Assembly: GCA_020161655.1 (NCBI GenBank)
Contig: JAIUPC010000004.1
Location: 1-64,000, forward strand
DNA: 64,000 nt
Source of the DNA: Pseudomonadota bacterium
GTDB lineage: Bacteria > Pseudomonadota > Alphaproteobacteria > Rhodobacterales > Rhodobacteraceae
Reading direction: 5' to 3'
The notes under the pieces are model-generated. The model saw only the letters and a list, made by a program, of their open reading frames with translations. It ran no database searches and was not told the DNA's origin. Of this stretch, positions 6,254 to 64,000 are shown one piece after another. How positions within the stretch are numbered: the first letter of the stretch is position 1; every line of letters starts with the position of its first letter. The position numbers were made by a program, and so were the translations under genes.

Positions 6254-6336
6254 TGCGGTCAGTCCTTCGGGCAATGCAGGGCTATCCCCTGCCCGGGACG
6301 GGCAGGCAGGGGCAGGTCGACAGGGTTGGCGAAGGG

Positions 6337-7632: not shown

Positions 7633-7672
7633 GGCGATGCTCCTGCGAACCAGATGCGACGGGGCTAGCATT

Positions 7673-7710: not shown

Positions 7711-7779
7711 GTCTCGCGACAAAAGATTGTGCACTTCGCCGACAAGACCTATTGTCCAGAAAACAGCAGGGCGTTTCGC

Positions 7780-45138: not shown

Positions 45139-45475
45139 GGGTGTCAAAAGAACCGGGCTTGAGGCGGGCAGGGCGGTTTCGTTACTTCAAGACCAATGCC
45201 GAGATCATCCGCCTTGCCGTCTTGCTGTACGTCCGGTTCCCACTCTCGCTCCGGAACGTCGAAGGTCTAATCCATGAGCGGAGCATCGAAGTCTGCCACG
45301 AGACGGTCAGGTTCCGGTGGCACCGATTTGGGCCGATGCTCGCTTCGGAGATCCGCAAGTGACGCGTCGAAGGGATGAAATCGAGCCACTGGCGCTGGCA
45401 TCTCGACGCGGTGTTCTTGAAGATTACCGGTGAACGGCACAACCGTTGGCGGGCGGTCGATCACGAAGGCAAGGG
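45139..45475 (+). pseudogene. 5' fragment of an IS6-family transposase
   Basis: Reads FRYFKTNAEIIRLAVLLYVRFPLSLRNVE, like the intact copy, then hits TGA at 45360-45362 where the intact gene has CGA, and continues to about 45475, where the next IS copy begins. Compared with the intact copy, the leader GGTTTCGT is joined directly to TACTTCAAG, so the start codon and about ten codons are deleted. Nonfunctional; remains of an earlier insertion. Confidence 0.88.
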
Positions 45476-46288
45476 GTCTTGTCAGAAGAACCTGCTTGAG
45501 GCGGGCAGGGTGGTTTCGTAGTTTCCGTCCATGACGAAGCGCTCCCCCTTCCGTTACTTCAAGACCTCGCCCGAGATCATCCGCCTCGCGGTGATGATGT
45601 ACGTCCGGTTCCCGCTTTCGCTTCGAAATGTGGAGGATTTGCTGCACGAGCGCGGGATCGACATTTGTCATGAGACTGTACGGTTCTGGTGGCACAGGTT
45701 CGGCCCGATGTTTGCCGCTGAAATCCGAAAGCGACGTGTCAAGGGAATGCGATCGACTCGCTGGCGGTGGCATCTCGACGAGGTTTTTGTGAAGATTAAC
45801 GGCGAACGCCACTATCTGTGGCGGGCCGTTGATCACGAGGGTGAGGTCCTCGAAAGTTTCGTGACGAAGAAGCGGAACAAGAAGGCAGCTTTGAAATTCC
45901 TCAAGAAATCGATGAAGCGGCACGGTCGCGTCGATACGATCGTAACTGACCGGCTTCGCTCCTACGGCGCGGCCTTGAAGGAGATCGGCGCGGTCGGTCG
46001 CCAGGAAACCGGTCGCTGGTTGAACAATCGCGCGGAGAATTCGCATCTGCCGTTCCGACGACGCGAGCGTGCCATGCTTCGGTTCAGGCGAATGCGAACG
46101 TTACAGAAGTTTGCGTCCGTCCACGCATCCGTTCTCAACCTGTTCAACTCGGAGCGCAGCCTCTCCTCGCGACAGAATTTCAAGCTGAACCGCGCCGCTG
46201 CTCTCGCCGAGTGGCGCGGTCTCTATGCTACATAAGGCACAGCCATCCTGCCCTAGCTGAGACTGGTTCGCATTTGTCTGCCAGCACC
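45476..46288 (+). mobile_element. IS6-family insertion sequence with intact transposase
   Basis: The element spans about 813 bases around one transposase gene. The right end, read outwards, is GGTGCTGGCAGAC at 46276-46288 and begins GGTGCTG, like IS6-family ends. It is fixed because the next base continues an interrupted IS481-type gene. The left end is approximate: the copy joins the truncated copy near 45475 and no exact inverted repeat is visible, so the element may be left-truncated. The same right-end sequence occurs at 19055 and 62609. Confidence 0.7.
45531..46235 (+). CDS. IS6-family transposase (intact)
   Basis: A 234-residue DDE transposase. The N-terminal HTH region (FRYFKTSPEIIRLAVMMYVRF) is followed by WWHRFGPMFAAEIRKR, first Asp in WHLDEVFVKI (about residue 84), second Asp in IVTDRLRSYGAA, and Glu in NNRAENSHLPF. 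Length is usual for IS6/IS26-like enzymes. It is the only undamaged IS6 transposase in the window and could mobilise the others' ends if those persist. Confidence 0.95.
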   Translation: MTKRSPFRYFKTSPEIIRLAVMMYVRFPLSLRNVEDLLHERGIDICHETVRFWWHRFGPMFAAEIRKRRVKGMRSTRWRWHLDEVFVKINGERHYLWRAVDHEGEVLESFVTKKRNKKAALKFLKKSMKRHGRVDTIVTDRLRSYGAALKEIGAVGRQETGRWLNNRAENSHLPFRRRERAMLRFRRMRTLQKFASVHASVLNLFNSERSLSSRQNFKLNRAAALAEWRGLYAT

Positions 46289-46540
46289 ACTTCGCTTCCT
46301 CGGCCTCGGTCAGAACGTTCGAGCGCGGTTCCGCCTGCCTCGTCTTCATAACTTCGACCGTGGTCTGCTTCTGCCATTTCGCGACGGGTCTTGGGGTTGA
46401 TGCCCGGTTCCCGGCTCAGCTGCGCGGGCGAAGCTTGCGATCGCGGTATTGCTGCTCTGACGGCGTGCCCTCGCCATGGTGCTCGGACCAATGGCGCACC
46501 ATGGCTCGATCGTGGCGCTGCCATGACGAACTTGTCCCAA
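46289..46540 (-). pseudogene. N-terminal fragment of an IS481-type transposase, cut by IS6
   Basis: On the minus strand the start reads (TTG) GQVRHGSAT, similar to the MGQVLHGSA start of IS481-type transposases, then continues after frame changes as GINPKTRREM and MKTRQAEPRSNVLTEAEEA. The similarity breaks exactly where GGTGCTGGCAG, the IS6 right end, begins. The remaining part of the gene is absent, so the IS6 element inserted here and later lost the other side. Nonfunctional. Confidence 0.7.
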
Positions 46541-46576: not shown

Positions 46577-47308
46577 TCAAACCGTGGGATCAAACACCTC
46601 GGCGTGGTGCTCTTTCAGTCGCGGAAAGCCGTAGGCACCGACTTTCGAGGTCAGATAGCCACCTCCCACCAGGCCCTCGCCCAGCTTCACTGCGGCGCTG
46701 ACGCCGTCGATCACAGGAATTCCGGCCACGTCCTGCAAACGGGCGCAGAGTTCGGACATTCCCGCGCAGCCCAGCAACACCGCCTCGGCACCATCGCTGT
46801 CGCGGGCGGCGCGGATCTCGTGCAGCAGTCGCCGCTCGCTGGTCTCGGGATCCTGCTCGAGCGCAAGCACTGGCATGTTCACCGACCTCACGCTGCGGCA
46901 GCGCGGCGCGGCGCCGTAGCCCGCGACGAGATCCTCGATGATCGGAACCGACCGGGGCAGGGTGGTGACAACGGAGAACCGGCTGGCAATGGTGGCGGCG
47001 ACATGAACCCCGGCCTGACAGATGCCGACCACCGGCCCGCGGGCAATTTCGCGTGCCGCGGCCAGTCCTGGGTCGTCGAAGCAAGCGATTACATAGGCGT
47101 CGATGCCTCGCGCCTCGCCGCCCCGGATCAGGTCAAGCATAGCAGGAACGGCCATCGCCTCGTCAGCATGGCCCTCGATGCTGGCAGGTGTGCCATGTGC
47201 AGTCACCGCTTCGATCCGTGTGCCGGGAAAGGCGCAGCGTCGGGCGCTTTCGGCGATCTGCGCCGTCATCGAGGCCGTGGAGTTCGGGTTGATGACCATG
47301 ATCTTCAT
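46577..47308 (-). CDS. Asp/Glu/hydantoin racemase-family protein
   Basis: A 243-residue racemase of the Asp/Glu/hydantoin family, with MVINPNSTASMTAQI at the start and two Cys positions: VIACFDDPGL and VLLGCAGMSEL, which act as the acid/base pair. Hydantoin racemases interconvert D- and L-5-substituted hydantoins. ATG 47308 overlaps the flavin-reductase stop (ATGA). With two amidohydrolases in the same block a cyclic-ureide pathway is plausible. A malonate-decarboxylase-like role is an alternative. Confidence 0.87.
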   Translation of the reverse strand: MKIMVINPNSTASMTAQIAESARRCAFPGTRIEAVTAHGTPASIEGHADEAMAVPAMLDLIRGGEARGIDAYVIACFDDPGLAAAREIARGPVVGICQAGVHVAATIASRFSVVTTLPRSVPIIEDLVAGYGAAPRCRSVRSVNMPVLALEQDPETSERRLLHEIRAARDSDGAEAVLLGCAGMSELCARLQDVAGIPVIDGVSAAVKLGEGLVGGGYLTSKVGAYGFPRLKEHHAEVFDPTV

Positions 47309-47958
47309 GAATTCACCGTGGTCGAAAGGCGCGCTGCCGCCGGCATCGGAGGGGTGGGCATGACGAACTGGCGGTCCGAGGTGATGTAGTTGTCGGCATG
47401 CAGGCGGGCAATCGGCTGGTAGGTGTCGGGGTCGACGTAGCGCCCGGCGGCATCGAGGCATTCCCGTCGGACATGCATCTGGACGACCTCGCCGATCACG
47501 ATCAGCCGGCGCCCGTATTCCAGCAGCCTGTCCACCCGGCATTCCATCGCGCAGGGGCTTTCGACGATGCGTGGCGCCCCGATATGCAGGCTCCGCGCCG
47601 AGGTCAGCCCCGCCAGTTCAATCTCGTCAACATCTGCGGCGACGGGAAGGCCGCAGACCAGCATCGCGTCGGCCAATGCCATGTCGACCATGTTCACCAC
47701 GAATTCGCCGTCCCGGCGAATGTTGCGCACGGTATCTTTCTCTTGCCCATCGGGCCGGGTCTGGATGCCAAGGATCACCAGGGCCGGATCATGCGAGAAG
47801 ACGTTGAAGAAACTCATCGGCGCGGCATTGCCCTTGCCGCTCTCGGACCTTGTTGACACCAGCGCGATGGGGCGCGGGCCGACGAAGTTCGTCAGCAGTC
47901 GATATCGGTCCTGCGGCTCGATCCGGGTGAAGTCGAATGACATGGTCTGAACATGCAT
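47305..47958 (-). CDS. Flavin-reductase-like FMN-binding protein
   Basis: A 217-residue flavin reductase-domain protein: YRLLTNFVGPRPIALVSTRS and GNAAPMSFFNVFSHDPALV are FMN-site segments. It could supply reduced flavin to a partner monooxygenase, but none is encoded in this block, so direct oxidoreduction is possible. ATG 47958 follows a GAGGG site; an internal Met at 47943 is an alternative. It is divergent from the GntR regulator with the operator between them. Confidence 0.87.
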   Translation of the reverse strand: MHVQTMSFDFTRIEPQDRYRLLTNFVGPRPIALVSTRSESGKGNAAPMSFFNVFSHDPALVILGIQTRPDGQEKDTVRNIRRDGEFVVNMVDMALADAMLVCGLPVAADVDEIELAGLTSARSLHIGAPRIVESPCAMECRVDRLLEYGRRLIVIGEVVQMHVRRECLDAAGRYVDPDTYQPIARLHADNYITSDRQFVMPTPPMPAAARLSTTVNS

Positions 47959-50614: not shown

Positions 50615-50643
50615 CCGCCCGACCCCGAAACGGGGTCGGGCGG
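50615..50643. terminator. 13-bp GC hairpin after the binding-protein gene
   Basis: CCGCCCGACCCCG (50615-50627) pairs perfectly with CGGGGTCGGGCGG (50631-50643) around AAA, 8 bases past the binding-protein stop and 34 bases before the permease. No T-run. Third case in this window of a perfect hairpin directly after a binding-protein gene. Confidence 0.72.
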
Positions 50644-50676
50644 TGCCGCGCCAACTGCAACCGGGGAACCACCGCG

Positions 50677-51648
50677 ATGATCGTCTTTCTTGTGAAACGT
50701 CTGGCCAATGCGGCGCTGGTCATGCTGGCCGTTGCGCTGATGGCCTTCCTGATCTTCCGCTTCGTCGGCGATCCGGTGCAACTGATGGTCAACGAACAGA
50801 CCACCCAGGCCGAGAAGGACGCCCTGCGCGAGGGGCTGGGACTGAACGACCCGGTCGCGGTGCAGTTCCTGCGCTTTGTCGGCAATGCCGTGCAGGGCGA
50901 CTTCGGGGTCTCCTACCGCAACCAGCAAGAGGTGATGAGCCTGATTGCGGAACGCTTGCCCGCCACGATCGAACTGGTCCTGCTGGCCACGATCATCTCG
51001 CTCGTCGTGGGCGTGCCTCTTGGCGTCATCACGGCAATTCACCGCGGCACCTGGTATTCCGAGGGCTTGCAGTTCCTGTCGATCATCGGGGTATCGTTGC
51101 CCAGCTTCGTGATCGGCATCCTGTTGATCCTGGTCTTTTCGGTCATGCTCAACGTCTCGCCTGCCTTCGGACGCGGCGAGGTGGTCAGCATCGGCTGGTG
51201 GACGACCGGCCTTCTGACGCCATCGGGACGGGCCGCATTGATCCTGCCCTCGGTCGCGCTGTCACTTTACCAGATCACACTGGTGATGCGGCTGGTCCGG
51301 GCCGAGATGATGGAGGTTCTGCGCTCCGACTTCATCAAGTTCGCCCGCGCCCGCGGCGTGCCACGCTGGCGCGTCTACTATGTCCACGCCTTGCGCAATT
51401 GCCTGATGCCCGTGGTCACCATGACTGCGATGAACATCGGGTCGCTGATCGCTTTCGCGCTCATCACCGAAACCGTGTTCCAGTGGCCCGGCATGGGAAT
51501 GCTCTTCATCCAGGCCGTAACCTTTGTCGATATTCCGGTGATGGCGGCCTATCTCTGCATCGTTTCCTTCATCTTCGTCGCGCTGAACACCCTGGTCGAC
51601 ATCACCTATGCGCTGATCGATCCGCGCCTGCGCACGGCAAGAGGCTGA
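50677..51648 (+). CDS. DppB-type ABC permease
   Basis: A 323-residue membrane permease. Start IVFLVKRLANAALVMLAVALM contains the first span; GDFGVSYRNQQEVMSLIAERLPATIEL (core GDFGVSY) is the usual B-type segment, and the EAA loop is DFIKFARARGVPRWRVY. About six spans. It is 4 bases before the C-type permease gene. Confidence 0.94.
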   Translation: MIVFLVKRLANAALVMLAVALMAFLIFRFVGDPVQLMVNEQTTQAEKDALREGLGLNDPVAVQFLRFVGNAVQGDFGVSYRNQQEVMSLIAERLPATIELVLLATIISLVVGVPLGVITAIHRGTWYSEGLQFLSIIGVSLPSFVIGILLILVFSVMLNVSPAFGRGEVVSIGWWTTGLLTPSGRAALILPSVALSLYQITLVMRLVRAEMMEVLRSDFIKFARARGVPRWRVYYVHALRNCLMPVVTMTAMNIGSLIAFALITETVFQWPGMGMLFIQAVTFVDIPVMAAYLCIVSFIFVALNTLVDITYALIDPRLRTARG

Positions 51649-51652
51649 CCCA

Positions 51653-52585
51653 ATGATCGCGAACACGCAAACCTCCGGCCGCATCGCCCGTTGGCGGCAA
51701 AGCGACCTGTGGTGGTCGTTCACCCGCAACAAGGCCGCAATGTTTGCGGCGGGGTTGCTGGCGCTGCTGGTGATCTCGGCGTTCACGGCGCCGCTTTATG
51801 CACCGCAGAACCCCTTCGATCCGGCGCAACTTGACCTACTGAATGCCGAGTATCCGCCGATCTGGATCGAGGGCGGGCAATGGCCCTTCCTCCTGGGTAC
51901 CGACACGCAGGGGCGGGATATCCTCTCGGCGATCCTCTACGGCTCGCGCATTTCGATCCTGATCGGGATCGCGTCGGTCCTGCTGGCGCTGCTGGTAGGC
52001 ATCGGGTCCGGGCTGGTGGCGGGATACTTCGGCGGGCTGATCGAAAACCTGCTGATGCGGGTGGGTGACATCCTTCTGTCGATTCCGACGATCCTGATCG
52101 CCATCCTGGTCAGCGCCATCGTGCGCGAGTTGCTGCCCGTCAGCCTGCGTGACGTCGGTGCGGCCGGGGTACTTGTTCTCGCCATCGTGCTGTCGGGCTG
52201 GGTGCAATATGCCCGCACGGTGCGTGCGCAGACAGCCGTGGAGCGCGGCAAGGAGTATGTGCAGGCGGCACAATTGCTGGAAGTGCCGGCGCGCCGCATC
52301 ATGTTCAGCCATATCCTGCCCAATACCCTGACACCGATCCTGGTAGCCGCCACGCTGAATTTCGGCATGGCGATCCTGACCGAAGCGACGCTTTCCTTCC
52401 TTGGCATCGGCATGCCCGCGAGCCAGCCGAGCCTTGGCACGCTGATACGGCTCGGCAACCAGTTCCTGTTTTCGGGGATGTGGTGGATCACTGTCTTTCC
52501 CGTCCTGCAGCTCTGCCTGTTGGTCGTCTCGGTCAATCTGCTGGGCGACTGGCTGCGCGACGCCTTGAACCCGAAACTGAGGTAA
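51653..52585 (+). CDS. DppC-type ABC permease
   Basis: A 310-residue permease. GTDTQGRDILSAILYGSRISI is the characteristic C-type segment (GTDTQGRDILSA), the EAA loop is EYVQAAQLLEVPARRIMFSH, and FGMAILTEATLSFLGIG is near the C-terminus. It pairs with the DppB-type partner as a heterodimer. Two bases separate it from the amidohydrolase gene. Confidence 0.94.
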   Translation: MIANTQTSGRIARWRQSDLWWSFTRNKAAMFAAGLLALLVISAFTAPLYAPQNPFDPAQLDLLNAEYPPIWIEGGQWPFLLGTDTQGRDILSAILYGSRISILIGIASVLLALLVGIGSGLVAGYFGGLIENLLMRVGDILLSIPTILIAILVSAIVRELLPVSLRDVGAAGVLVLAIVLSGWVQYARTVRAQTAVERGKEYVQAAQLLEVPARRIMFSHILPNTLTPILVAATLNFGMAILTEATLSFLGIGMPASQPSLGTLIRLGNQFLFSGMWWITVFPVLQLCLLVVSVNLLGDWLRDALNPKLR

Positions 52586-52587
52586 TC

Positions 52588-53790
52588 ATGCCCGACCTGC
52601 TGATCCGCAACATCCACCCGATGGGCCTCGACGCGCAGGACATCCTGATCCGCGACGGTCGCATCGCCGCCATCGGCACCGGCCTTGCCGCCGAGGGTGC
52701 AGAGGTCGTGGACGGGAAGGGCGCCATCGCCATTCCGGCCCTTGTGGACGCCCATACCCATCTCGACAAGACCACCTGGGGGATGCCTTGGTACAAGGGC
52801 CGCAAGGGTGGCGATCTGCAGGCGCTGATCGACAACGAGCGAAACGAACGCCGCGCCATTGGTCTTGATGTCCACCGCCAGTCGATGCGTCATGCAATCC
52901 GTCTGGTCGAGAACGGAACCGGCCATATCCGCAGTCATGTGGATGTGGACACTGACCACAAGCTGACCCTTCTCGAGGGCAAGCTGCGAACACGCGCCGC
53001 ACTCAAGGACGCGGTCGACATCCAGATCGTCGCCTTTCCGCAATCCGGCCTGATGGTCCGCCCCGGCACCTATGAACTGCTGGACGAGGCCTTGGCCATG
53101 GGCGCCGATGTGGTCGGCGGGCTGGACCCCAGTTCGATGGACCGCGACCCCAAAGGCTCGCTTGATGCGATCTTCCGGCTGGCGGGAAAGCATGGCAAAC
53201 CCGTCGACATCCATCTGCACGAATACGGCGAGTTGGGTTCCTTCACACTCGAGGAGATCATCGCCAGGACCGAGGCACTTGGGATGCAGGGCAGGGTGGG
53301 CGTGTCGCATTGCTTCTGCCTCGGAATGCCCGATCCACTTCGGGTCGGGCAACTGATGGAACGCGTGGCCCGCGCCGATATCCGCATCTTCACCACGGGA
53401 CACCCTTCCGCCGAGGTACCGAGCCTGCAAGCCATGCGCGCGGCGGGTATCAAGGTCGGCATGGGTTGCGACGGCATCCGTGACACCTGGGGCCCCTGGG
53501 GCCAGCCCGACATGCTGCACCGCGCCCGCATCGTCGGCATGAAGAACCGGATGCGCCGGGATGACGAGTTGGAACTGCTGCTGGATGTCGCTTCGCGCGG
53601 CGGAGCCGAGGCGATGGGGCTGGAGGCGCCGGGGCTGGCGATCGGCGGTCCGGGTGACCTGACGTTGGTGGCCGGTGAGACGCTGGCCCATGCCGTGGTC
53701 GAGGAAGCGCCGCGGCCGCTGGTGGTCAAGCGGGGTAGGGTGGTGGCGCGTGATGGTGTGCTGGCGCTGGCCGGGGTGACGATGCCATGA
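52588..53790 (+). CDS. Cytosine-deaminase-like amidohydrolase
   Basis: A 400-residue amidohydrolase-family metalloenzyme. It has IPALVDAHTHLDKTTWGMPW (His-x-His metal site, with the HLDKT form usual in cytosine deaminase-like enzymes), IDIHLHEYGE (written DIHLHEYGE), VSHCFCLGM and GMGCDGIRDTWGPWG with the catalytic Asp. Length is family-usual. It probably hydrolyses a ring C-N or N-acyl bond of a compound imported by the surrounding transporter. Starting ATG 52588 was fixed by the 2-base spacing. Overlaps the next gene by four bases. Confidence 0.88.
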   Translation: MPDLLIRNIHPMGLDAQDILIRDGRIAAIGTGLAAEGAEVVDGKGAIAIPALVDAHTHLDKTTWGMPWYKGRKGGDLQALIDNERNERRAIGLDVHRQSMRHAIRLVENGTGHIRSHVDVDTDHKLTLLEGKLRTRAALKDAVDIQIVAFPQSGLMVRPGTYELLDEALAMGADVVGGLDPSSMDRDPKGSLDAIFRLAGKHGKPVDIHLHEYGELGSFTLEEIIARTEALGMQGRVGVSHCFCLGMPDPLRVGQLMERVARADIRIFTTGHPSAEVPSLQAMRAAGIKVGMGCDGIRDTWGPWGQPDMLHRARIVGMKNRMRRDDELELLLDVASRGGAEAMGLEAPGLAIGGPGDLTLVAGETLAHAVVEEAPRPLVVKRGRVVARDGVLALAGVTMP

Positions 53791-55277
53791 CGGACCTGTC
53801 CGATCTGCCCCTTGGCGCCGCCGCGCCGGGCCGAACGGCCTTGACGGCGCAATGGGTGCTGGGCCATGCCGAGGGGCGACACTGCCTGATCCACGGTGGA
53901 GAGGTGGTCTTTGAAGGTGGCCGCATCGTTTGCGTCGGCCCCCGCTTTGACGGCGAGGTGGCGCGGCGGATCGACCTTGGCCGCGCGCTGATCTCACCCG
54001 GGCTGATCGACCTGGATGCGCTGTCGGATCTGGACACCACCATTCTCGCGATTGATCACAGCCCCGGCTGGGCCAAGGGCCGCGTCTGGCCGCGCGGCTA
54101 TGTCACCCGTGGCCCTTTTGAGATGTATGCGCCCGGCGAACTCGCCTTCCAGAAACGCTACGCCTTTGCGCAGCTGCTGCTGAACGGGATCACTACCGCC
54201 GCCCCCATCGCCTCGCTGTTCTACCGCGAATGGGGCGAGACGGTTGCAGAGTTTACCGCCGCCGCCGATGCCGCCGGCGAGATGGGCCTGCGGGTCTACC
54301 TCTCGCCCGCCTACCGGTCTGGAGGGATGGTGCTGGAAGCGCCGGGACAGATGGAGGCGGTGTTCGACGAGGCACGAGGCATGGCCGGATTGGATGCGGC
54401 TGTGGGCTTTTTCGCCGCACAGGATGGCCGGTATGGCGGGCTGGTCCGCGGCATTCTGGCGCCCGATCGGGTGGAGACCTGCACCGTGGGCCTGTTGCGC
54501 CGCACCATGGACGCGGCGCTCGATCTGGATTGCAAGGTGCGCCTGCACATGGCGCAGGGCGAGATGGAGGTGGCCACCGTCCGCAAGCTGCACGGCACGA
54601 CGGCGCCCGACTGGCTGGCACGCGAAGGGCTGCTGAATGACCGGCTGATTGCCCCCCATGCCACCAACGCGACCGAAACCGATCTGGCGCATTACGCGGC
54701 GCATGGCGTCAGCGTGGTGCATTGCCCGTTGGTCTCGGCCCGCTTCGGCTCTGCCTTGCGCAGCTTCGGGCGGCTCAAGGCGCAGGGGATCAACCTGTGC
54801 ATGGGCACCGATACCGCGCCCGCCGACATGCTGATGAACCTGATGACGGGGCAAATGGCCGCGCGGATCGCCGATCCGGCGGCGCCGCACCAGAACAGCG
54901 CCGACTTCTGGGATGCGGCAACGCTGGGCGGCGCCCGGGCGCTCGGGCGTGACGATCTGGGGCGGCTTGCCCCCGGCGCGCGCGCCGACATTGCCGTCTT
55001 CCGGCTGGATGACGTGGTCATGACCCCGACCATCGACCCGATCACCACGCTGGTGGCCGGTGGCACGGGGCGTGTGACACAGGCGGTTTTCGTCGATGGG
55101 CGGTTGTCGATGCGTAACGGCCAGGTAGCGTGCATTGACCTTCCTGCCGCACAGGCCCGCGCCCAGGCGCAGTTTGACGGGCTGGTCGCAAAATACCCTG
55201 AGCGCAGCTGGCAGCACCCCCCGGTGTCCGAACTTTTCCCCCCGAGTTATCCGATCCGGCAGGAGGCCGTCGCATGA
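53787..55277 (+). CDS. Chlorohydrolase/TRZ-like amidohydrolase with altered first metal motif
   Basis: A 496-residue member of the ATZ/TRZ amidohydrolase family. LHMAQGEME (His), LIAPHATNATE (His) and MGTDTAPADML (Asp) are kept, but where the first His-x-His motif is expected (PGLxxxHxH) the sequence reads SPGLIDLDALSDLDTT, with Asp in place of both His. The enzyme may therefore bind metal differently or be inactive. Other conserved stretches (YVTRGPFEMYAPGE, RLAPGARADIAVF) are intact. ATGA overlap with the previous gene and with DppD-type ATPase shows coupling. Confidence 0.82.
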   Translation: MTDLSDLPLGAAAPGRTALTAQWVLGHAEGRHCLIHGGEVVFEGGRIVCVGPRFDGEVARRIDLGRALISPGLIDLDALSDLDTTILAIDHSPGWAKGRVWPRGYVTRGPFEMYAPGELAFQKRYAFAQLLLNGITTAAPIASLFYREWGETVAEFTAAADAAGEMGLRVYLSPAYRSGGMVLEAPGQMEAVFDEARGMAGLDAAVGFFAAQDGRYGGLVRGILAPDRVETCTVGLLRRTMDAALDLDCKVRLHMAQGEMEVATVRKLHGTTAPDWLAREGLLNDRLIAPHATNATETDLAHYAAHGVSVVHCPLVSARFGSALRSFGRLKAQGINLCMGTDTAPADMLMNLMTGQMAARIADPAAPHQNSADFWDAATLGGARALGRDDLGRLAPGARADIAVFRLDDVVMTPTIDPITTLVAGGTGRVTQAVFVDGRLSMRNGQVACIDLPAAQARAQAQFDGLVAKYPERSWQHPPVSELFPPSYPIRQEAVA

Positions 55278-56260
55278 CTGCACAACCGACACTCGAGATC
55301 CGCAACCTCAGTGTGAAGTTTCCGGGCCGTCACGGCACGGTTACTGCGCTGGACGATGTAAGCCTGACGATCCAGCCCGGCGAGATCCTTGGCGTGGTCG
55401 GTGAATCCGGGGCCGGAAAATCAATGACCGGCCTCGCGGTGCTGCGGCTTCTGGAGCCTCCGGGGCATATTTCCGGCGGCGAGGTGCTTCTGAACGGCCA
55501 TCGTATCGACAACCTTCCCGAACACGAGATGGAAAAGATCCGCGGCCGCGAGATCGGCGCGATCTTCCAGGACCCCCTGACCTCGCTGAACCCATTGTTC
55601 TCGGTCGGTCGTCAGCTGGTCGAGACCATCCGGTTGCACAGCCCCATGTCAAAGGCCGCCGCCCGGCTGCGGGCGGTCGAGTTGCTGGCTGAGGTTGGCA
55701 TTCCGGCCCCGGCGGAGCGCGTGGACCACTTTCCGCACCAATTCTCGGGCGGGATGCGCCAGCGCGTGGTGATCGCATTGGCATTGGCGGCGCGCCCGAA
55801 GCTTGTCATCGCGGACGAACCGACGACAGCGCTGGACGTCTCGATCCAAGCGCAGATTACTGCCCTGTTGCGCCGGCTCTGCAAGGACAATGGCACGGCA
55901 GTGATGCTCGTGACGCATGATATGGGCGTCATCGCGGAAACTGCCGACCGGGTGGCGGTGATGTATGCAGGCCGGCTTGTCGAAATCGGCCCGGTGGCGG
56001 ACGTCGTTGCGCGGCCGAGCCATCCTTACACGCGCGGTCTGATGGGCTCGATCCCGACGCTTGGCGCCCGTGTGCCCCGGCTGCAGCAGATCGACGGGGC
56101 AATGCCTCGACTGGACGCCATTCCGCCAGGTTGCGCCTTCAACCCGCGCTGCCCCTTGGTGCATGACCGATGCCGAAGCGAAAGGCCCAACCTGCGCGCT
56201 GCCGCGTCCGGACTGGCCGCGTGCTGGCTGGCCGCCGCTTCCGAGGAGAAAGCCGCATGA
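55274..56260 (+). CDS. DppD-type ABC ATP-binding protein
   Basis: A 328-residue ATPase: Walker A GESGAGKSMTGLA, signature FSGGMRQRVVIALAL, Walker B LVIADEPTTALD, and C-terminal CAFNPRCPLVHDRC, the Cys-rich oligopeptide-ABC tail that can bind an iron-sulfur cluster in some relatives. ATG 55274 overlaps the amidohydrolase stop. Confidence 0.94.
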   Translation: MTAQPTLEIRNLSVKFPGRHGTVTALDDVSLTIQPGEILGVVGESGAGKSMTGLAVLRLLEPPGHISGGEVLLNGHRIDNLPEHEMEKIRGREIGAIFQDPLTSLNPLFSVGRQLVETIRLHSPMSKAAARLRAVELLAEVGIPAPAERVDHFPHQFSGGMRQRVVIALALAARPKLVIADEPTTALDVSIQAQITALLRRLCKDNGTAVMLVTHDMGVIAETADRVAVMYAGRLVEIGPVADVVARPSHPYTRGLMGSIPTLGARVPRLQQIDGAMPRLDAIPPGCAFNPRCPLVHDRCRSERPNLRAAASGLAACWLAAASEEKAA

Positions 56261-57261
56261 TCCCCGCCCAGCATTCCGCCCCCAGTGCGCTGACCGTTAC
56301 CGGCATGACCCGACGCTTTGACGTTTCGGCACCTTGGCTTAACCGCGTGCTCGAAGGAAAGCAGCGCTCCTATGTGCGCGCGGTCGACGACATCACCTTC
56401 GAGGTTCCGAGAGGCGGCAGCCTCAGTCTTGTCGGGGAATCCGGCTGCGGCAAGTCTACGGTTGCCCGCCTTGTAACCGGGCTGCACATACCCACGTCGG
56501 GCACCATCGCTTTCTCACCGGGCCGCAAGGGTAAGCCGCTATCAGTGCAGATGATCTTTCAGGACCCCTATGCCAGTCTCAATCCGCGCTGGCGGGTCTT
56601 CGATGTCATTGCCGAACCACTGCGTGAATTGAAGCTGCGCGACACCGAAGCAGCAATTTCCGAGCGCGTTTCAGACCTGCTCAAGACCGTCGGTCTAGCC
56701 GCCAGTGACGGGCGCAAGTTTCCGCACGAATTCTCCGGCGGGCAGCGGCAACGCATCTCGATCGCGCGCGCGCTGGCATCGGAACCGGAGTTTCTGGTCT
56801 GTGACGAGCCAACTTCCGCGCTGGATGTCTCCGTGCAGGCACAGATTCTCAATCTCATGCGCCGTTTGCAGGACGAGATGGGCCTGACGTACCTTTTCAT
56901 CAGTCACGACATGAGCGTGGTGCGGCACATGTCGGACCAGATCGCGGTGATGTATCTCGGCCGTATCGTCGAACAGGCACCGACCGAGGTGCTGTTCGCC
57001 ACGCCGCGGCACCCCTATACGCGCCTTCTCCTCGACACCATTCCGAACGTGACCAGTCCGCGGCGCGACCGGATACCGCAATCCGGCGAGGTGCCAAGTC
57101 CGTTGAACCCACCCACAGGCTGCACCTTCCACCCCCGCTGTCCGGACGCCGACAGCCGCTGCACCGCGGAACGACCCAAGATGGAGAGCCTTCCCGATGG
57201 CAGCCGCGTGGCTTGTCACCGCGTTTCGGAGATCCTTGCTGCTCTGGCGGTTCCGGCCTGA
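56257..57261 (+). CDS. DppF-type ABC ATP-binding protein
   Basis: A 334-residue ATPase: Walker A GESGCGKSTVARL, signature FSGGQRQRISIARAL, Walker B FLVCDEPTSALD, C-terminal CTFHPRCPDADSRC. ATG 56257 overlaps the DppD-type stop; the longer frame upstream is a shadow of dppD. An insert LNRVLEGKQRSYVRAVD before Walker A is normal for F-type partners. This ends the block C operon. Confidence 0.94.
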   Translation: MIPAQHSAPSALTVTGMTRRFDVSAPWLNRVLEGKQRSYVRAVDDITFEVPRGGSLSLVGESGCGKSTVARLVTGLHIPTSGTIAFSPGRKGKPLSVQMIFQDPYASLNPRWRVFDVIAEPLRELKLRDTEAAISERVSDLLKTVGLAASDGRKFPHEFSGGQRQRISIARALASEPEFLVCDEPTSALDVSVQAQILNLMRRLQDEMGLTYLFISHDMSVVRHMSDQIAVMYLGRIVEQAPTEVLFATPRHPYTRLLLDTIPNVTSPRRDRIPQSGEVPSPLNPPTGCTFHPRCPDADSRCTAERPKMESLPDGSRVACHRVSEILAALAVPA

Positions 57262-57325
57262 GCGGCCGCCCGGTCGCGGCCGGCTGAAAGGCCAGTGGCA
57301 GGTCACTCCGGGCCGACGAGGCTCC

Positions 57326-57656
57326 TCAGCAACTGGTTCTCCCGACGATCTGTGTCGTGCCCATGAAGAGTACATCGAGCCGGGCGACCTGGGCACGGTA
57401 GATCGATCTGATGTCCTCGGCCGTCGGCAGAGCGTCCGGTGTATCATCGGTCGCACGCGCGGCAATCCTCTTCCGAAGGCGGGATCGCTCCTCTTGCCGT
57501 TCGCGAAGACGCCCAATCAGCGATTTGCCAAGTCCATAGGTTTCGAGCCGATCGAGCAGTCTGGCAATGGATCGTTCAGCCGACTTCAGTTCGGCGAGAA
57601 AACGGCTGTTTGTTGGGGCACTGAATGAGTCTTCTTTGATAAATGACTGACCGGCA
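57326..57656 (-). pseudogene. C-terminal fragment of a serine recombinase
   Basis: On the minus strand about 105 codons read FLAELKSAERSIARLLDRLE, GLGKSLIGRLRERQEER and DIRSIYRAQVARLDVLF, a charged coiled-coil layout like the C-terminus of large serine recombinases. An in-frame TAA lies just upstream, and the catalytic domain is missing. Assigned from pattern memory only. Confidence 0.55.
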
Positions 57657-57755
57657 GTTTAGGGCCTATCCGTGCCGACCGAGATGGATGCTGTCCCGTT
57701 GAGTGGTGTATCTGGCGCTGATCGTCACCGTGATGGGCGGCGCGGGCATGCTTGA

Positions 57756-57905
57756 TCAGGTTGCCTCGGCGGGCAGGCTGATGACGGGATCATCGCCCAT
57801 CGGTGCGATTGTTTCCAGCGTCACGTAGCGCGCGCCGGACTGCCTATTCGTCGTTCTGTTCCAGCAGCAAGGCCTCGACCAGGCTCGCACAAGTGCGGTC
57901 AGGAT
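57756..57905 (-). pseudogene. C-terminal fragment of an IS256-family transposase
   Basis: Minus-strand codons read EALLLEQNDE, then a TAG where Trp of NDEW is expected, then after a frame change ARYVTLETIAPMGDDPVISLP. This resembles the end of alphaproteobacterial IS256-type transposases (ARYMTLET, DDP, SLPA). The rest is missing. Nonfunctional debris between blocks C and D. Confidence 0.6.
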
Positions 57906-58082
57906 GGCGTCCCGATCCATTGTGAGAGCCCTCCATCCTTCAACGCCCACCCCTAAGCGGCCCCGGGCTCCAATCCCGAACTGGCCCGCCTGAAAGCGCG
58001 GCTCCGTGGACAATGCCGAGGTCCAAGCCCCTTCGGACAGCATGGACTTGCAAAGAACAGCTTGGTGGAGCAGCGTCTTGGA
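57906..58082. other. Leader region upstream of the P450 gene
   Basis: About 175 bases with no recognisable gene. It should hold the promoter of the P450-NRPS pair. GGTGGAG at 58064-58070 is the only weak ribosome-site candidate, about 12 bases before ATG 58083. Confidence 0.4.
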
Positions 58083-59423
58083 ATGAAACTGCGAAGCCGT
58101 TTGCCGGGCGCGGGCGCTCATCGGCGATTTGACGTCGTGCAGGCAAGGGCGGCGCTGGTTTCGCTGTTTCGTCGAACCCGCTTGCCGCCGGGAGATAAGG
58201 CGCAGGCGCTAGATGTTATTGAAAAAAATGACCGTCTGGCCTTGCTTCGCATGGCGGTTGAAGTGGGGCCTGTTTTCAAGGGCCGTGGTTGGGGCAGCCT
58301 CTGGATCTATGTCGTCGGCCTGCCGCGCTGTCGCCAGATCCTGCGCGCCCACGAAGATGATCTGCACCCGGTGACGATTGATGTCGGCACGCTCTTCGAC
58401 AAGGGCATCCTGCGGCAGATGGAGGGTGACGATCACCGCCGTTACCGGTCAGCACTTGTTCAGGCGATCGGGGCCCTGCCTGCCGACCGCGCAGAGGGTC
58501 AGGTGTCGCGGGTAGGGCATTCTCTAAAAGACATGTCAGGTCTGCAGGATGCGGCCCCGATGCCAGTTCAGACTTTCAAATCTCTGCTTGCCCGGATTGT
58601 CCTCGACGAGCTGGCCCATGTCATCTTCGGCGTCGAGCCGGGCGAGCCGGCGCACGATGAGTTGGTTGCAGCTTACGGCGAACTTGGGGGCAATGGACTG
58701 GTGTGGAACATCGGAACGCGGCAGGCCCGCGCCTACGCCGCGATTGCCGCGATCCTGCGCCGGCACAGCGCTACGACGGAGGCCCGCGGGCCTGCAAGCA
58801 CAAGTGTCCTCGCCAATCTTTTGCAGCAGGGCCCGGTTGATGCCGTCATGCTGGGCAACCTGATCTACATGGTCGAGATGGGGCGCTACGACATGGCCGC
58901 CTTTTTCCGCTGGCTGACCTGGTTCGCCGCCATGCATCAGGACTGGATGCAGCGGATCGCCGAAGCGACTGACACGCAGCAAGCTGTCGCCGCGGCATTT
59001 GTCATGGAGGCCCTGCGACTGGAGCAATCCGAACGCCTGGTGCGGCGGGTCAAACGCGATTTTGTGGCCGAGGGGTTTCTCTTCCCGAAGGGCGCAAATG
59101 TCCGGTTCTGCATCTGGGAATCTCACAAGTCACCGGACGCGCATGCCGAGCCGTTCAGCTTCGATCCGGGCCGCTTCTTGGGCGAACGGCCCGGGCCGGA
59201 CCGCTATTCACCGTTCGGCATCGACCGCCACCAGTGCCCCTTCGGCGCCTATTCGATCCGACTGGCCGCCGCCTTCGTCACGGCTCTGGCGACACATTTC
59301 CACATCGGACTGTCCGGCAGCGGCGCACCGGTGCGTGGGCTCTACCACTGGGAACCGGCGGAGGACTTTTCGCCGGTGTTCACCGAAAGAAAGCCTCGTT
59401 CAACCAACGGCTCGCGGCCTTGA
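58083..59423 (+). CDS. Cytochrome P450 with atypical I-helix and heme loop
   Basis: A 446-residue P450. The K-helix ExxR is MEALRLEQ (E309, R312). The heme-binding loop is SPFGIDRHQCPFGAYS, with axial Cys385; the usual FGxGxHxCxG is altered to FGIDRHQCPFG. In the I-helix, where A/G-G-x-D/E-T is expected, I read NLIYMVEMGRYDMAAF, so the oxygen-activating Thr is not visible. This may signal an unusual oxidation or substrate-assisted proton delivery. ATG 58083 is preferred to upstream TTG/GTG. It ends 14 bases before the NRPS start, so the pair is one transcript, and the P450 likely acts on the aminoacyl group held by the NRPS carrier domain. Confidence 0.88.
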   Translation: MKLRSRLPGAGAHRRFDVVQARAALVSLFRRTRLPPGDKAQALDVIEKNDRLALLRMAVEVGPVFKGRGWGSLWIYVVGLPRCRQILRAHEDDLHPVTIDVGTLFDKGILRQMEGDDHRRYRSALVQAIGALPADRAEGQVSRVGHSLKDMSGLQDAAPMPVQTFKSLLARIVLDELAHVIFGVEPGEPAHDELVAAYGELGGNGLVWNIGTRQARAYAAIAAILRRHSATTEARGPASTSVLANLLQQGPVDAVMLGNLIYMVEMGRYDMAAFFRWLTWFAAMHQDWMQRIAEATDTQQAVAAAFVMEALRLEQSERLVRRVKRDFVAEGFLFPKGANVRFCIWESHKSPDAHAEPFSFDPGRFLGERPGPDRYSPFGIDRHQCPFGAYSIRLAAAFVTALATHFHIGLSGSGAPVRGLYHWEPAEDFSPVFTERKPRSTNGSRP

Positions 59424-59437
59424 CGCAGATCACCGAC

Positions 59438-62089
59438 ATGCATGCAGAAGTCGGTGCAAATCTGGCAGCACTCATCGCGCGCCAGGCGGGCGAAACCCCG
59501 GAGGCGACCGCGCTGGTGGCCGAGCGCACCTGGACCTACCGCGATCTCTACGAGCGCATGCTGGCCTATGCCAAAGGGATCGCGCGGCTGGGTCTGCCAC
59601 CCGAGACGGCGGTCGCGGTCCTCGTTCCGCGCGACGCCGACATGGTGGCGCTGCTGCTCGCCATCCTCTGGTCCGGTCTGGCCTATGTTCCCATTGATCC
59701 GGAGGACCCGCCGGAGCGCGGCTTCCGCATCCAGAAAGCGGCGGCCTGTCAGGTCATTCTGGGGGCCGCCGAGCATTTGGCGAAGCTGGGGGCGGCGGGG
59801 CCAGACCTTCCCAGGACGATCGAGCCTGCGGCCCTGCTCGCATCCGGACAAGGACAGGAGGCCCCCGACTGCGCGCCGGGACATGACCGGCTCGCCTATG
59901 TGCTCTTCACATCGGGCAGCACCGGCGAACCGAAGGGCGTCGAGATCGAGCATCGCCAGCTGATGAACCTGCTCCACGCATCGCGCGATCTTCTGCAATT
60001 CGGCGAGGGCGACCGCTATCTGGCCATTGCCACCATCGCCTTCGACATTTCTGTCGTCGAACTCTTCCTGCCGCTCTTGGTGGGGGGAAGTTTCCTGCTG
60101 CGCAGCAGGTCGCTGCTGCGCGATCCGGCGCAACTGGTTGCCGATCTGCGCCAGCATGATGTCACCGTGGTTCAACTCGGGCCGTCCAGTTGGTCGGTGC
60201 TTCTGCAATCCGACGCCGACTTTCCGCATCTGCGCGTCACAATCAGCACGGGCGAGCCGATCACGCCGTCACTGGCCGCACGGCTGCCAGAGGTCGCTGA
60301 CCTGGCGCTGAACCTCTACGGCCCAACCGAAACCACCGTCTGGGCAACGGGCTATCGCCTCGATCCATCGCCCGCCGACAGCCCGCTCGCCTCGAAGATT
60401 TCTGCTCCCATCGGCAAACCTCTGGCCGGCTGCACTACCCTTGTCGTCGGTCCGGACGGGGTGCCCGTCGCCGATGGGGAGGAAGGCGAACTGCTGATCG
60501 GCGGCGCGGGCGTGGCGCGAGGCTATCGCCTTCGGCCCGACCTGACAGCGGAGCGGTTCATCCGGTCTGGGGTAGATGAGCAGCGCTTCTATCGGACTGG
60601 CGATCTGGTGCGGCGGGACCCCGACGGTGTCATCCACTATTTCGGACGCAACGACGATCAGATCAAGGTGCGCGGCGTGCGGATCGAGCCGCGGGAGGTC
60701 GAGGCAGCGCTTCAGCAGGTTCCCGGTGTCGCCGACGCGGCGGCGACCTGGTTCGATACCGGATCTTCGACGCGCGGCATCGTCGCCGCCGTGGTCTGGC
60801 GGCAGGGCCGGTCGCTGCCGTTTGAAACCCTGCACGAAACGCTGGGCCGCAGCCTGCCGCGGGCGATGGTGCCATCGCGCTTCGTCGCCTTCGACCGCCT
60901 GCCGCAGACCGCAAGCGGCAAGGTCGACCGCGCCGCGATCCGCGCCGCCACACCCTATCCGGTCGGCTCGAACGAGCCGGGCTATTCCCGATCGCTCACC
61001 CTGTCGGACACCGAGGCGCGGCTGACGATGATCTGGCAAAAGGTTCTCGGCCTCGACCGGGTTGAACTCGACACCCATTTCTTCATCGAGGGCGGAGACT
61101 CGCTTTCGGCGATTGCCATGATCCTGGATGCGGAGAAAGCCTTCGACACAGCGATCGATCCGAACAGCATCTGGGACGCGCCGCGACTTTACGATTTTGC
61201 GAAGACCGTCGAGCGCGCGCGACGGCAGCCCGATGACCTGCAGAACCGCCGGACGGTCTTTCCGCTGGTTCGGGAGGGCAAGGGCCATCCCTTGTTCTTC
61301 AGCAATATTGACCTGAAACTTGGCCGCCCCGGCCTCTGGACCGCAGGCTGTCCGCTCTATGCCGTCACGCAATGGGCTTCGGGCCAGGGTTTCGTGAAGG
61401 CGCGTTCGATCAGCGATCTTGCGGCGGCGCAGATTCCAGAAATCAGGGCCGTCCAGCCCGGTGGTCCCTACAGGATCGGCGGCTACTCACTGGGAGGTCT
61501 CATCGCGCTCGAGATTGCGCAACAGTTCCGCGACGAGGGCGAGGAGGTCGAACTTCTGTTCCTTCTCGATCCGATGGCGCCGGTCCGCTACAGGACAGCC
61601 GGGTCGGGTGATATCGCAAAGGCCCCCGGGTTCGTCCGTCCTCCGCTCATACGGCGGATCGGCGAACAGGTGCGGGAACTGGCCCGCGCACCGCGACAAG
61701 AAGCGCCACGTGCGCTGACGCGGCTTGCACAGGCACTCCGGCGTTTGCCGGTCTGGCAACGGGTCGAGTATCGCCTCGTCGATCTTTACGGCCGGCATCC
61801 GAACAGCGTCACGCGCCGCCTGATGCCCGGGAACCGCTGGCCCGCCTTCTGGTACGCCGCACGCAACCTCGCGCAGTCCTATGTGGCACAACCCTACGAA
61901 GGGCGGGCGCTGGTCGTGTTCCACGACCGGGCCGAACGCTTCGGGATCTGGAGTTCGCTCCTGCCCGCAGACCCCGACATTGCCGTGATCGAAGCGACAC
62001 ATCTGGGGATGTTTGTGGCACCTGCAATCGGGCTCTGGATGGATGCGTTGGAGAAGACCCTGGATCACCGACAGAGCGACATGGTTTGA
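59438..62089 (+). CDS. One-module NRPS: adenylation, carrier and thioesterase domains (A-T-TE)
   Basis: An 883-residue synthetase. A domain (about 1-510): A3 YVLFTSGSTGEPKG, A4 FDISVVELF with the Asp that binds an alpha-amino group, A5 NLYGPTETTVW, A7 YRTGDLVRRDPDG, A8 GRNDDQIKVRGVRIEPRE, A10 PQTASGKVD (Lys). Carrier domain: FFIEGGDSLSAI, Ser about 555, for phosphopantetheine. TE: GGYSLGGL (Ser684), LLDPMAP (Asp region), IEATHLGMF (His855). No condensation domain is present, so it activates and releases a single amino acid, probably after P450 oxidation. ATG 59438 is chosen; TTG 59420 would overlap the P450 stop. No MbtH-like gene is in the window. The TGA lies in sequence shared with the IS6 leader. 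Confidence 0.9.
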   Translation: MHAEVGANLAALIARQAGETPEATALVAERTWTYRDLYERMLAYAKGIARLGLPPETAVAVLVPRDADMVALLLAILWSGLAYVPIDPEDPPERGFRIQKAAACQVILGAAEHLAKLGAAGPDLPRTIEPAALLASGQGQEAPDCAPGHDRLAYVLFTSGSTGEPKGVEIEHRQLMNLLHASRDLLQFGEGDRYLAIATIAFDISVVELFLPLLVGGSFLLRSRSLLRDPAQLVADLRQHDVTVVQLGPSSWSVLLQSDADFPHLRVTISTGEPITPSLAARLPEVADLALNLYGPTETTVWATGYRLDPSPADSPLASKISAPIGKPLAGCTTLVVGPDGVPVADGEEGELLIGGAGVARGYRLRPDLTAERFIRSGVDEQRFYRTGDLVRRDPDGVIHYFGRNDDQIKVRGVRIEPREVEAALQQVPGVADAAATWFDTGSSTRGIVAAVVWRQGRSLPFETLHETLGRSLPRAMVPSRFVAFDRLPQTASGKVDRAAIRAATPYPVGSNEPGYSRSLTLSDTEARLTMIWQKVLGLDRVELDTHFFIEGGDSLSAIAMILDAEKAFDTAIDPNSIWDAPRLYDFAKTVERARRQPDDLQNRRTVFPLVREGKGHPLFFSNIDLKLGRPGLWTAGCPLYAVTQWASGQGFVKARSISDLAAAQIPEIRAVQPGGPYRIGGYSLGGLIALEIAQQFRDEGEEVELLFLLDPMAPVRYRTAGSGDIAKAPGFVRPPLIRRIGEQVRELARAPRQEAPRALTRLAQALRRLPVWQRVEYRLVDLYGRHPNSVTRRLMPGNRWPAFWYAARNLAQSYVAQPYEGRALVVFHDRAERFGIWSSLLPADPDIAVIEATHLGMFVAPAIGLWMDALEKTLDHRQSDMV

Positions 62090-62609
62090 GGCGGGCACCC
62101 GACTGGCGGGGATGCGATACGTGTTGTTGCCGCTCTCGCTTCGGAACGTGGAGCACCTGCTGCATCAGCGCGGCGCCGAGGTCAGCCAAGAGGCAGTCAG
62201 GTTTTGGTGGCACAGGTTCGGTCGGATGTTCGCTGCCGAGATACGGAAACGTCGGCACAAAGGTCTGAGACGAGGCCGGAGGCGTTGGCATCTCGACAAG
62301 ACTTTCTTGAAGATCGGTGGCGAGGTACTGGAAAGCCTGGTCACGAAAACTCGGGACAAGAATGGCGCTGTTAATCGGCGCAGCCTTGAAAGGCATGGGT
62401 GTCGCCGACACTCTGTGATCAGTTCCGTCGGCTCAGGCCCTGATCTTGACGTAGCAGAGGGGGCAATTCTGGATGCCGACAGGGGGTCAGTTTTGCGCGC
62501 CGATTGACAGACCGCACGCCACTCTCGCCGAGTGGCGTGGTCTCTGAGCGGGATCAGGGTCAGCCGTCCTGCCATGGCTGAGACGAGTTCGAACCAGTCT
62601 GCCAGCACC
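62085..62609 (+). pseudogene. Deleted IS6-family transposase remnant
   Basis: From about 62112 the plus strand reads VLLPLSLRNVEHLLHQRGAE and VRFWWHRFGRMFAAEIRKRR, and WHLDKTFLKI near 62290, matching the intact IS6 transposase. Much of the middle is lost (WRAVDHEGEVLES shortened, catalytic second Asp and Glu region missing), and the tail LAEWRGL occurs at about 62523-62544. The right end GGTGCTGGCAGAC (outward) is at 62597-62609. The leader TTTGAGGCGGGCA overlaps the NRPS stop. Inactive. Confidence 0.85.
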
Positions 62610-62644: not shown

Positions 62645-64000
62645 TCAGGCGCGCCCTTCTGCGCCCTCCAGGGCCTCTGCCGCCGGTTCCGGTCGGCGAA
62701 GGGCACGGCGTACGAGGACGAAGAAGAGCGGCACGAAGAGGATGCCAAGCACGGTGGCAGATATCGTCCCACCAAGCACCGTCGCGCCGATCGTGTTCCG
62801 CCCGTTTGCCCCCGCGCCGGTCGAGATCACCAAGGGCAGGACGCCAAGCGAGAAGGCGACCGAGGTCATGATGATCGGCCGGAACCGCTGGCGTGCCGCT
62901 TCGATCACCGCGTCATAGAGCGGTCGGCCCGCTTCCGCCTGTTCTCGGGCGAATTCGACGATCAGGATGGCGTTCTTGCCGGTCAGGCCGATCACCGTCA
63001 GGAGGCCGACCTGAAAGAAGACCCCGTTGTCAAAGCCGCCGAGCCAGGCGCCGCAGAGTGCGCCAAGAACGCCGATGGGCATCGCGAACATGACAGCCAG
63101 CGGAATTGCCCAGCTTTCATAAAGCGCGGCCAGGCACAGGAACACGACGCCGAGCGAGAGAGCGTAAAGCAGCGTCGTCTGGCTTCCGGCCTGCTGCTCC
63201 TCAAGCGATAGCCCGGTCCAGGCGACGGCATAGCCCGTTGGCAACTGCTGCGAGATTTCCTCGATCGCCGCCATGCCCTGACCGCTCGACACGCCGGGGG
63301 CGGGGCTACCCTGGATCTGCATCGCGGGCACGCCGTTATAGCGCGTCAGGCCCTGCGGACCGTAGCTCCACCGGCCTTCCGCGAAGTTCGAGAAAGGCAC
63401 GAGCCCGCCGGAGCTGTTGCGGACCCGCCAGCGATCCATGTCCGACGGCAGCGCCCGGGATTCAGTGTCGCCCTGAATATAGACACGCTTGATCCGGCCC
63501 CGGTCGACGAAGTCGTTCACATAGCGCCCGGCCCAGGCGACCGACAGGAGGTTGCCGACATCCGTTGCGGAAACCCCCATGGCGCCCGCCTTCCGCCAGT
63601 CGATATCAAGGTTGTACTGCGCGGCATCCTCAAGCCCGTTCGGGCGGGCCGACGCGATGCGCGGGTCCTGCGCCGACATGCCAAGTAGCTGGTTCCTCGC
63701 ATCCAGAAGCTGCTCATGCGCCTGACCCGAGCGCGCCTGCAGGTAGAAGTCAAAGCCCGAGACGTTGCCAAGCTCGATCACCGAAGGCGGAACGATCGGG
63801 AAGGCCATCGCATCGCGGATCTGCATCATCGCCGGGAAGGCCCGGCCCGCGACGGCCTGCACCGACTGATCCGGTCGCGGACGTTCCTCCCAGTCCTTCA
63901 GTCGCACGAAGGCCATGCCGGCGTTCTGCCCCTGACCGGCGAAGCTGAAGCCCGAGACACCGAAGAAGCTTTCAACATTCTCGGATTCGTTGGTCATGAA
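62645..64000 (-). CDS. RND multidrug efflux transporter, C-terminal part (5' end outside window)
   Basis: The C-terminal ~450 residues of an AcrB/MexF-type HAE1 inner-membrane pump. The periplasmic part has GFDFYLQARSGQAHEQLLDA and SPAPGVSSGQGMAAIEEI; the membrane part has LAALYESWAIPLAVMFAMPIG, GLTGKNAILIVEFAREQAEAG and FVPLFFVLVRRAL. The usual conserved RND end is complete at 62645; the N-terminus lies beyond base 64000. Proton-driven efflux of drugs or solvents with an outer-membrane partner; neither partner is in the window. It begins 35 bases past the IS6 right end. Confidence 0.93.
   Translation of the reverse strand, partial: FMTNESENVESFFGVSGFSFAGQGQNAGMAFVRLKDWEERPRPDQSVQAVAGRAFPAMMQIRDAMAFPIVPPSVIELGNVSGFDFYLQARSGQAHEQLLDARNQLLGMSAQDPRIASARPNGLEDAAQYNLDIDWRKAGAMGVSATDVGNLLSVAWAGRYVNDFVDRGRIKRVYIQGDTESRALPSDMDRWRVRNSSGGLVPFSNFAEGRWSYGPQGLTRYNGVPAMQIQGSPAPGVSSGQGMAAIEEISQQLPTGYAVAWTGLSLEEQQAGSQTTLLYALSLGVVFLCLAALYESWAIPLAVMFAMPIGVLGALCGAWLGGFDNGVFFQVGLLTVIGLTGKNAILIVEFAREQAEAGRPLYDAVIEAARQRFRPIIMTSVAFSLGVLPLVISTGAGANGRNTIGATVLGGTISATVLGILFVPLFFVLVRRALRRPEPAAEALEGAEGRA

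Follow-up and report, generated by a model that had tools for sequence, protein, structure and literature searches.

The window analysed here is a stretch of 64,000 nucleotides (positions 1 to 64,000, forward strand, of contig JAIUPC010000004.1 in assembly GCA_020161655.1) from a Pseudomonadota bacterium of the family Rhodobacteraceae. It encodes a cytochrome P450 (P450) followed directly by a one-module nonribosomal peptide synthetase (NRPS) composed of adenylation (A), carrier (T) and in-line thioesterase (TE) domains. Together the two genes form an intact, co-inherited unit that pairs a loading and releasing enzyme with an intact but atypical oxidase. A preliminary description of this DNA recognized the unit and proposed that the P450 hydroxylates a carrier-bound amino acid at its beta carbon; it was right about the unit, and the mechanism needs changing.

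Integrity and co-inheritance of the cassette

Both frames run from ATG to stop without an internal stop codon, are separated by 14 bases and lie where the earlier reading placed them (coordinates in Table 1). In the second protein AMP-binding (E=7.4e-75), AMP-binding_C, PP-binding and Thioesterase all score above their Pfam cut-offs, which bears out the fusion of a thioesterase to the A-T part. The earlier reading also held that the protein works without a condensation domain, and a search of the host genome for PF00668 gave no match, while the same search was positive in 4 of 14 control genomes; loading and release of a single amino acid without a condensation step is supported. The window P450 has its ExxR motif at residues 309-312 and retains Cys385. 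The TE is fused in all seven cassette loci that we compiled, the window included (by Pfam in the window, L006, L026 and L027, and by alignment in all seven), and its nucleophile is Ser in six of them and Cys in L026. The L026 protein (5441-8026) has a different TE domain, the one with the Cys nucleophile; within the family, the release domain has been swapped. The position of His855 falls on a gap in the L026 alignment.

The A-T-TE gene is the one directly after the P450 gene in every locus, five alphaproteobacterial and two from the phylum of the Opitutaceae, which agrees with the earlier view of the two proteins as partners. The combination had been put forward as one not known from alphaproteobacteria, a statement that no longer holds now that the pair has been found in further loci of that class. 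In L003, L004, L026 and L027 the two genes share 4 bases, and the frames used for L005, whose start codons are uncertain, overlap by 19 bases. The L006 P450 was read from two codons past its likely ATG, and that of L027 from stop to stop (477 aa), with 32 residues trimmed for the identity and tree comparisons. Pairwise identities of the P450s correlate with those of the A-T-TE proteins (r=0.98 over 21 pairs) and the two tree topologies are identical. The ratio of nonsynonymous to synonymous substitution rates (dN/dS) against L003 is ~0.22 for both genes (P450 dN 0.088, dS 0.40); both are under purifying selection relative to their nearest relative.

When genome contigs were scanned for the P450, 46 pattern matches were obtained, and four of these encode relatives: those of a Rhodobacteraceae metagenome-assembled genome (MAG; 84% identity), an Amylibacter MAG (53%), Roseovarius litorisediminis (52%) and an Opitutaceae MAG (45-46%). 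The genome searches covered samples and scored only some candidates per genome, and the seven loci are not a census. Profile searches with the P450 matched 2 of 394 genomes of the window's family, its own included, and 2 of 240 of the phylum of the Opitutaceae genome, that genome included, each adding one locus. With the single protein as query, 196 genomes from the order yielded a match in the window's own genome alone and none in two other genomes of its genus, one of which again gave none in the family search. Class and phylum samples yielded 2 of 385 and 2 of 398 genomes, in each case the window and one more distant P450, and both matching genomes of the phylum sample are alphaproteobacterial. 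None of the three more distant P450s whose loci were examined (L002, one of five Mesorhizobium plasmid records; L022; and L023, a contig of 7.9 kb) adjoins an A-T-TE gene; the L002 protein is ~29% identical to the window P450. In L002 (9947-12237) and in L022 (4766-7128), from another alphaproteobacterial genome, a sister P450 type with an EFARYD motif precedes a family 2 glycosyltransferase. L023 encodes a distant P450 with an MGRED I-helix (5702-7090, minus strand), adjoined by genes that appear by eye to be aldo/keto reductase-like and Hint-domain-like.

Among the papers listed by our literature searches, none describes the P450 and A-T-TE pair, apart from one on a Pseudomonas fusion. ‘NRPS 10’ of that Pseudomonas survey has the same four domains, but fused in one protein as A-T-TE-P450, with an A specificity that its authors did not predict (PMC8719888). 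A PHROGs search found nothing.

Substrate pocket, atypical P450 and candidate chemistry

The A-domain code was read from an alignment to a GrsA reference sequence whose numbering was checked. The window code is DIVQITLVW-K and the codes of the seven loci vary only within D(I/V)(V/A)Q(I/V)TL(V/I)WK. Asp235, Gln278, Trp331 and Lys517 (GrsA numbering) each occur in all seven A domains. Because Asp235 and Lys517 are kept, the substrate should be an amino acid, and to that extent the code agrees with the preliminary description; the Gln/Trp pair points to glycine, in a code that is not the canonical one. Q246 and W302 of the window lie at +43 and +99 from D203, which is the spacing of D656, Q699 and W755 in the glycine-activating DhbF, where the pocket is apparently occluded by W755 bonded to Q699 and D656 contacts the amino group (PMC11253843). 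Both DhbF and AB3404 are listed as glycine-activating (PMC11253843). When the A core was used as the query against solved structures, DhbF (5U89) ranked first, followed by five LgrA rows and two further solved entries, with AB3404 (4ZXH) ninth. Gln278 and Trp331 occur together in 5 of 18 comparison A domains, a small set taken from five chosen plasmid loci and biased to good matches, and all five read DILQLGL(I/V)W. A literature search by pocket code found no paper with DIVQITLVW or DILQLGLIW, and two that contain DILQIGLIW. The canonical glycine code is DILQLGL(I/V)WK. Taken together, these residues suggest glycine as the substrate with modest preference, while some other small amino acid is a lesser prospect.

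The cassette P450s depart from the usual pattern in two motifs. ExxR and the Cys heme ligand are present in all seven. Their I-helix reads MGRYD throughout, with M or T as the next residue, and does not contain the canonical (A/G)Gx(D/E)T. MGRYD aligns to GSET of 3DBG, with Trp277 ten residues past Gly267; from this register and the Trp it follows that Tyr-Asp stands in for the acid-threonine pair. The three more distant P450s have Arg-(Tyr/Glu)-Asp at the same place. The Cys loop is FGxDxHxCP in the whole cassette family; among the four other P450 genes of the host genome it is FGxGxxxCxG in three and FSEGPRVCPG in one. Three of these four have an AGHE(T/A)(T/S) helix and the remaining one, L011, has no pickable I-helix motif. 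The best NCBIfam model for the window P450 is NF050147, for an ApyO-type P450 of ribosomally synthesized and post-translationally modified peptide (RiPP) pathways (E=2.8e-13; 49 bits against a cut-off of 525), which is also the best for the P450s of L002, L004 and L006; judged by these scores, the ApyO type is a distant relative of the cassette P450 and not a fellow member. No model named for NovI, NikQ or Qui15 was among the NCBIfam matches of the P450s in a general model scan.

Our tentative preference is for a carrier-bound glycine, or other very small amino acid, that is oxidized at the nitrogen or alpha carbon and released by the fused TE. The substrate that the A domain probably activates and loads onto Ser555 of the T domain is glycine or a similarly small amino acid. 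The P450 might then oxidize the carrier-bound aminoacyl group at nitrogen, to N-hydroxyglycyl or an oxime, or perhaps at the alpha carbon, to alpha-hydroxyglycyl collapsing to glyoxylyl, rather than at the beta carbon. The fused TE would release the oxidized group to water or an acceptor, and the product would be a small oxidized glycine derivative. If glycine is the substrate, then the P450 has evolved as the partner of a carrier loaded with an amino acid that lacks a side chain, and either N- or alpha-carbon chemistry takes place on the carrier or the P450 acts on something else; both outcomes would extend the chemistry recorded for carrier-linked P450s. The cassette has only two genes, so the whole pathway could be rebuilt in E. 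coli and the question is directly testable. Its P450s also provide a defined group in which to study the effect of Tyr-Asp replacing the acid-threonine pair.

Several points weigh against this proposal. The cassette shares D, Q and W at DhbF spacing with DhbF and AB3404, which are parts of condensing assembly lines, but it does not have the full canonical glycine code: position 239 is V or A, not L, and position 301 is T, not G. The substrate could thus be Ala, Ser or some unusual small acid. With the whole protein as the query, LgrA, a Val plus Gly protein, ranked first, AB3404 eighth and DhbF ninth. In the A-domain tree the cassette groups with a single one of the five DILQ-type domains, at a support of 0.11. 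Contact between the P450 and the carrier is presumed, and distant P450s of the same clade adjoin other genes in the three loci examined. Sfp-type phosphopantetheinyl transferases (PF17837, 4PPT_N) were found in none of 7 genomes by a search that was positive in 3 of 14 controls and missed an Sfp-like protein of Amylibacter.

The main rival is a serious one, although we consider it somewhat unlikely. Here the P450 would hydroxylate a separate small molecule and the A-T-TE would conjugate it with the loaded amino acid, with the TE acting as an acyltransferase, so that a P450-oxidized acceptor is glycylated. The glycosyltransferases beside the P450 relatives of L002 and L022 suggest that the clade may prepare acceptors for conjugation, and the different TE of L026, with its Cys nucleophile, also fits; Cys thioesterases often favour transfer over hydrolysis. 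Against glycylation, the TE has Ser in six of seven loci, and no further acceptor-making gene is common to the loci in the flanks compared (only 1.7 kb and 0.3 kb for L005).

Beta-hydroxylation of a larger carrier-bound amino acid, in the manner of NovH/NovI, NikP1/NikQ or Qui18/Qui15, is improbable. P450s hydroxylate carrier-bound amino acids in the novobiocin, nikkomycin and echinomycin systems (PMC3578932), and the division of labour would be equal, with A-T loading, P450 oxidation and thioesterase release (PMC3578932, PMC4147253). The cassette resembles these systems in encoding the A-T protein and P450 together in all seven loci, and its invariant Asp235 is also consistent with such a model. 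It differs in having its TE fused in line and no stand-alone TE: release is by the separate thioesterases NikP2 in nikkomycin and Bph in balhimycin (PMC4147253), and release by Qui14 in echinomycin was described as proposed and not studied (PMC3578932). NikP1 itself is not an A-T-TE protein: it is a didomain protein from which a separate type II thioesterase releases the product (PMC4147253), and an MbtH-like part is fused to its N terminus (PMC6668435). With its two genes, the cassette has also not been seen as part of a larger antibiotic cluster. The Gln278 and Trp331 pair, which occludes the pocket in DhbF, is present in all seven loci, and this glycine-type pocket makes a beta-carbon site unlikely, since glycine has no beta carbon. 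With the unusual MGRYD I-helix and Cys loop of the P450, this leaves the NovI/NikQ model of the preliminary description out of favour.

A decaying or unprimed cassette, functionless in its host for want of a suitable phosphopantetheinyl transferase, is very unlikely. The host genome has one PF01648 match, which is AcpS, and no PF17837 match, and insertion sequence (IS) remnants adjoin the cassette, but the catalytic residues are intact and selection against L003 is purifying (dN/dS ~0.22). Priming may be done by AcpS or by an Sfp-like enzyme of an unusual type such as that of Amylibacter. An Amylibacter genome (L038, 1177-1818) encodes a 214-aa Sfp-like phosphopantetheinyl transferase whose nearest model, AusB, scores below its cut-off, and other hosts may have similar unusual types; transferases were classified in plus-strand frames only, and in three of nine loci (L008, L036 and L038).

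Aryl-pyruvate A domains are not known to have Asp235. A furanone or quinone synthetase that dimerizes aryl-pyruvates, of the RalA, EchA and TdiA kind, is the least credible rival: RalA, EchA, TdiA and MicA share the A-T-TE order without a condensation domain, and RalA and EchA are bacterial and use substrates like phenylpyruvate (PMC5523082), but the cassette differs in keeping the amino-group-binding Asp235 in all seven loci, a pocket for small amino acids and a fixed P450 partner.

Table 1. Features of the cassette and adjoining insertion sequence remnants in the window.
Feature	Position	Strand	Remarks
P450 gene, cassette gene 1	58083..59423	+	446 aa, atypical; Pfam p450 E=2.7e-16
P450 I-helix motif EMGRYD	58875..58892	+	residues 265-270; replaces usual AGx(D/E)T
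P450 Cys loop FGIDRHQCPFG	59214..59246	+	heme-ligand Cys385; FGxDxHxCP in 7/7
A-T-TE one-module NRPS gene, cassette gene 2	59438..62089	+	883 aa; Pfam and NCBIfam
Adenylation core with pocket residues	59477..60526	+	Pfam AMP-binding
Pocket residues D203, I204, V207, Q246, I269, T271, L293, V301, W302			GrsA positions 235 to 331
Adenylation C-terminal subdomain	60695..60922	+	Pfam AMP-binding_C; Lys495 (GrsA 517), Lys in 7/7
Carrier (T) domain	61019..61207	+	Pfam PP-binding; phosphopantetheine Ser555, Ser in 7/7
Thioesterase domain	61250..62086	+	outer limits by eye; Ser684, Asp711, His855; Pfam Thioesterase residues 638-723
IS6-type remnant beside cassette	62096..62609	+	pieces 62096-62314 and 62522-62609; 72% and 80% DNA identity to element 45475-46289
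IS256-like remnant	57684..57884	.	weak assignment; annotation of one plasmid match

Genomic surroundings and mobility

The pair is a horizontally spread, self-contained two-gene cassette, a conserved unit in unrelated surroundings. The earlier suggestion of mobility is upheld by its scattered distribution, its mostly unrelated surroundings and the IS6-type pieces near the pair in three of the seven loci (the window, L003 and L005). Around the pair, the window and L003 match in a single block with 86% DNA identity (window 58044-62079). The full window has nine short DNA matches to L003 and seven to L005 outside the cassette, and those listed fall in IS6-type pieces. L004, L006, L026 and L027 have no DNA match to the window outside the cassette, IS6-type pieces included, in flanks whose compared lengths differ among loci. 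A larger gene cluster was considered and rejected: among 480 flanking open reading frames (those of the window with L007, and of the six other loci) there are 38 cross-locus matches, all between window/L007 and L003. These comprise transporter families, IS6-type frames and one frame pair that is 50% identical over 229 aa. Gene GC content ranges from 50 to 69% across the loci; for the window cassette it is 64.9%, against 64.6% for the whole window.

The cassette had been described as flanked by IS debris, which is well founded on the right and weak on the immediate left. On the right, a transposase fragment of the IS6-type remnant (protein 62112-62324, 71 aa) matches NCBIfam NF033587 with E=3e-13 and 50 bits, below the cut-off of 125. 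The window also contains an intact IS6 transposase 12 kb upstream of the cassette (45531-46235; 192 bits, cut-off 125) and a second one (18396-19001) that scores just above the cut-off. On the left, some part of 57262-58060 is matched by 314 plasmid records; all 12 listed match ~57684-57884, which is annotated as an IS256 transposase in one of these 12. No bounding repeats were found around the window cassette. An empty-site test with 55274-57261 gave only partial matches of 64 to 93%, many per genome, in two same-genus genomes and in the genome of L003.

In L003, IS6-type pieces lie 4 to 6 kb either side of the cassette. The Roseovarius cassette (L005) has IS6-type pieces on both sides (1-302 and 5785-6076). 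These are end and start pieces in opposite orientation, placed around the cassette and an adjoining P5CR-like gene, and the arrangement resembles a unit carried between two copies of an element. A wider proposal, which as a whole we hold to be doubtful, is that the cassette is a minimal complete carrier-linked pathway in which a Tyr-Asp P450 oxidizes carrier-bound glycine at nitrogen or the alpha carbon, giving a diffusible one-amino-acid metabolite, perhaps N-hydroxyglycine, glyoxylate oxime or a product thereof, and that IS6-type elements have helped it to move between Rhodobacteraceae and the Opitutaceae phylum by horizontal transfer.

The 50%-identical frame pair (window 46580-47617, minus strand, and L003 4530-5285) adjoins IS6-type pieces and looks racemase-like by eye. 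In the window interval 50643-57261 lie genes for a dipeptide-type ABC transporter, identified by eye except for one ATPase recognized by NCBIfam, and two amidohydrolase-like genes, one of them of the chlorohydrolase family PRK06151. Downstream, from 62645 to 64000 and on into L007 as far as 8779 (minus strand), there is an AcrB-type RND efflux permease with a neighbour that by eye resembles its membrane-fusion partner.

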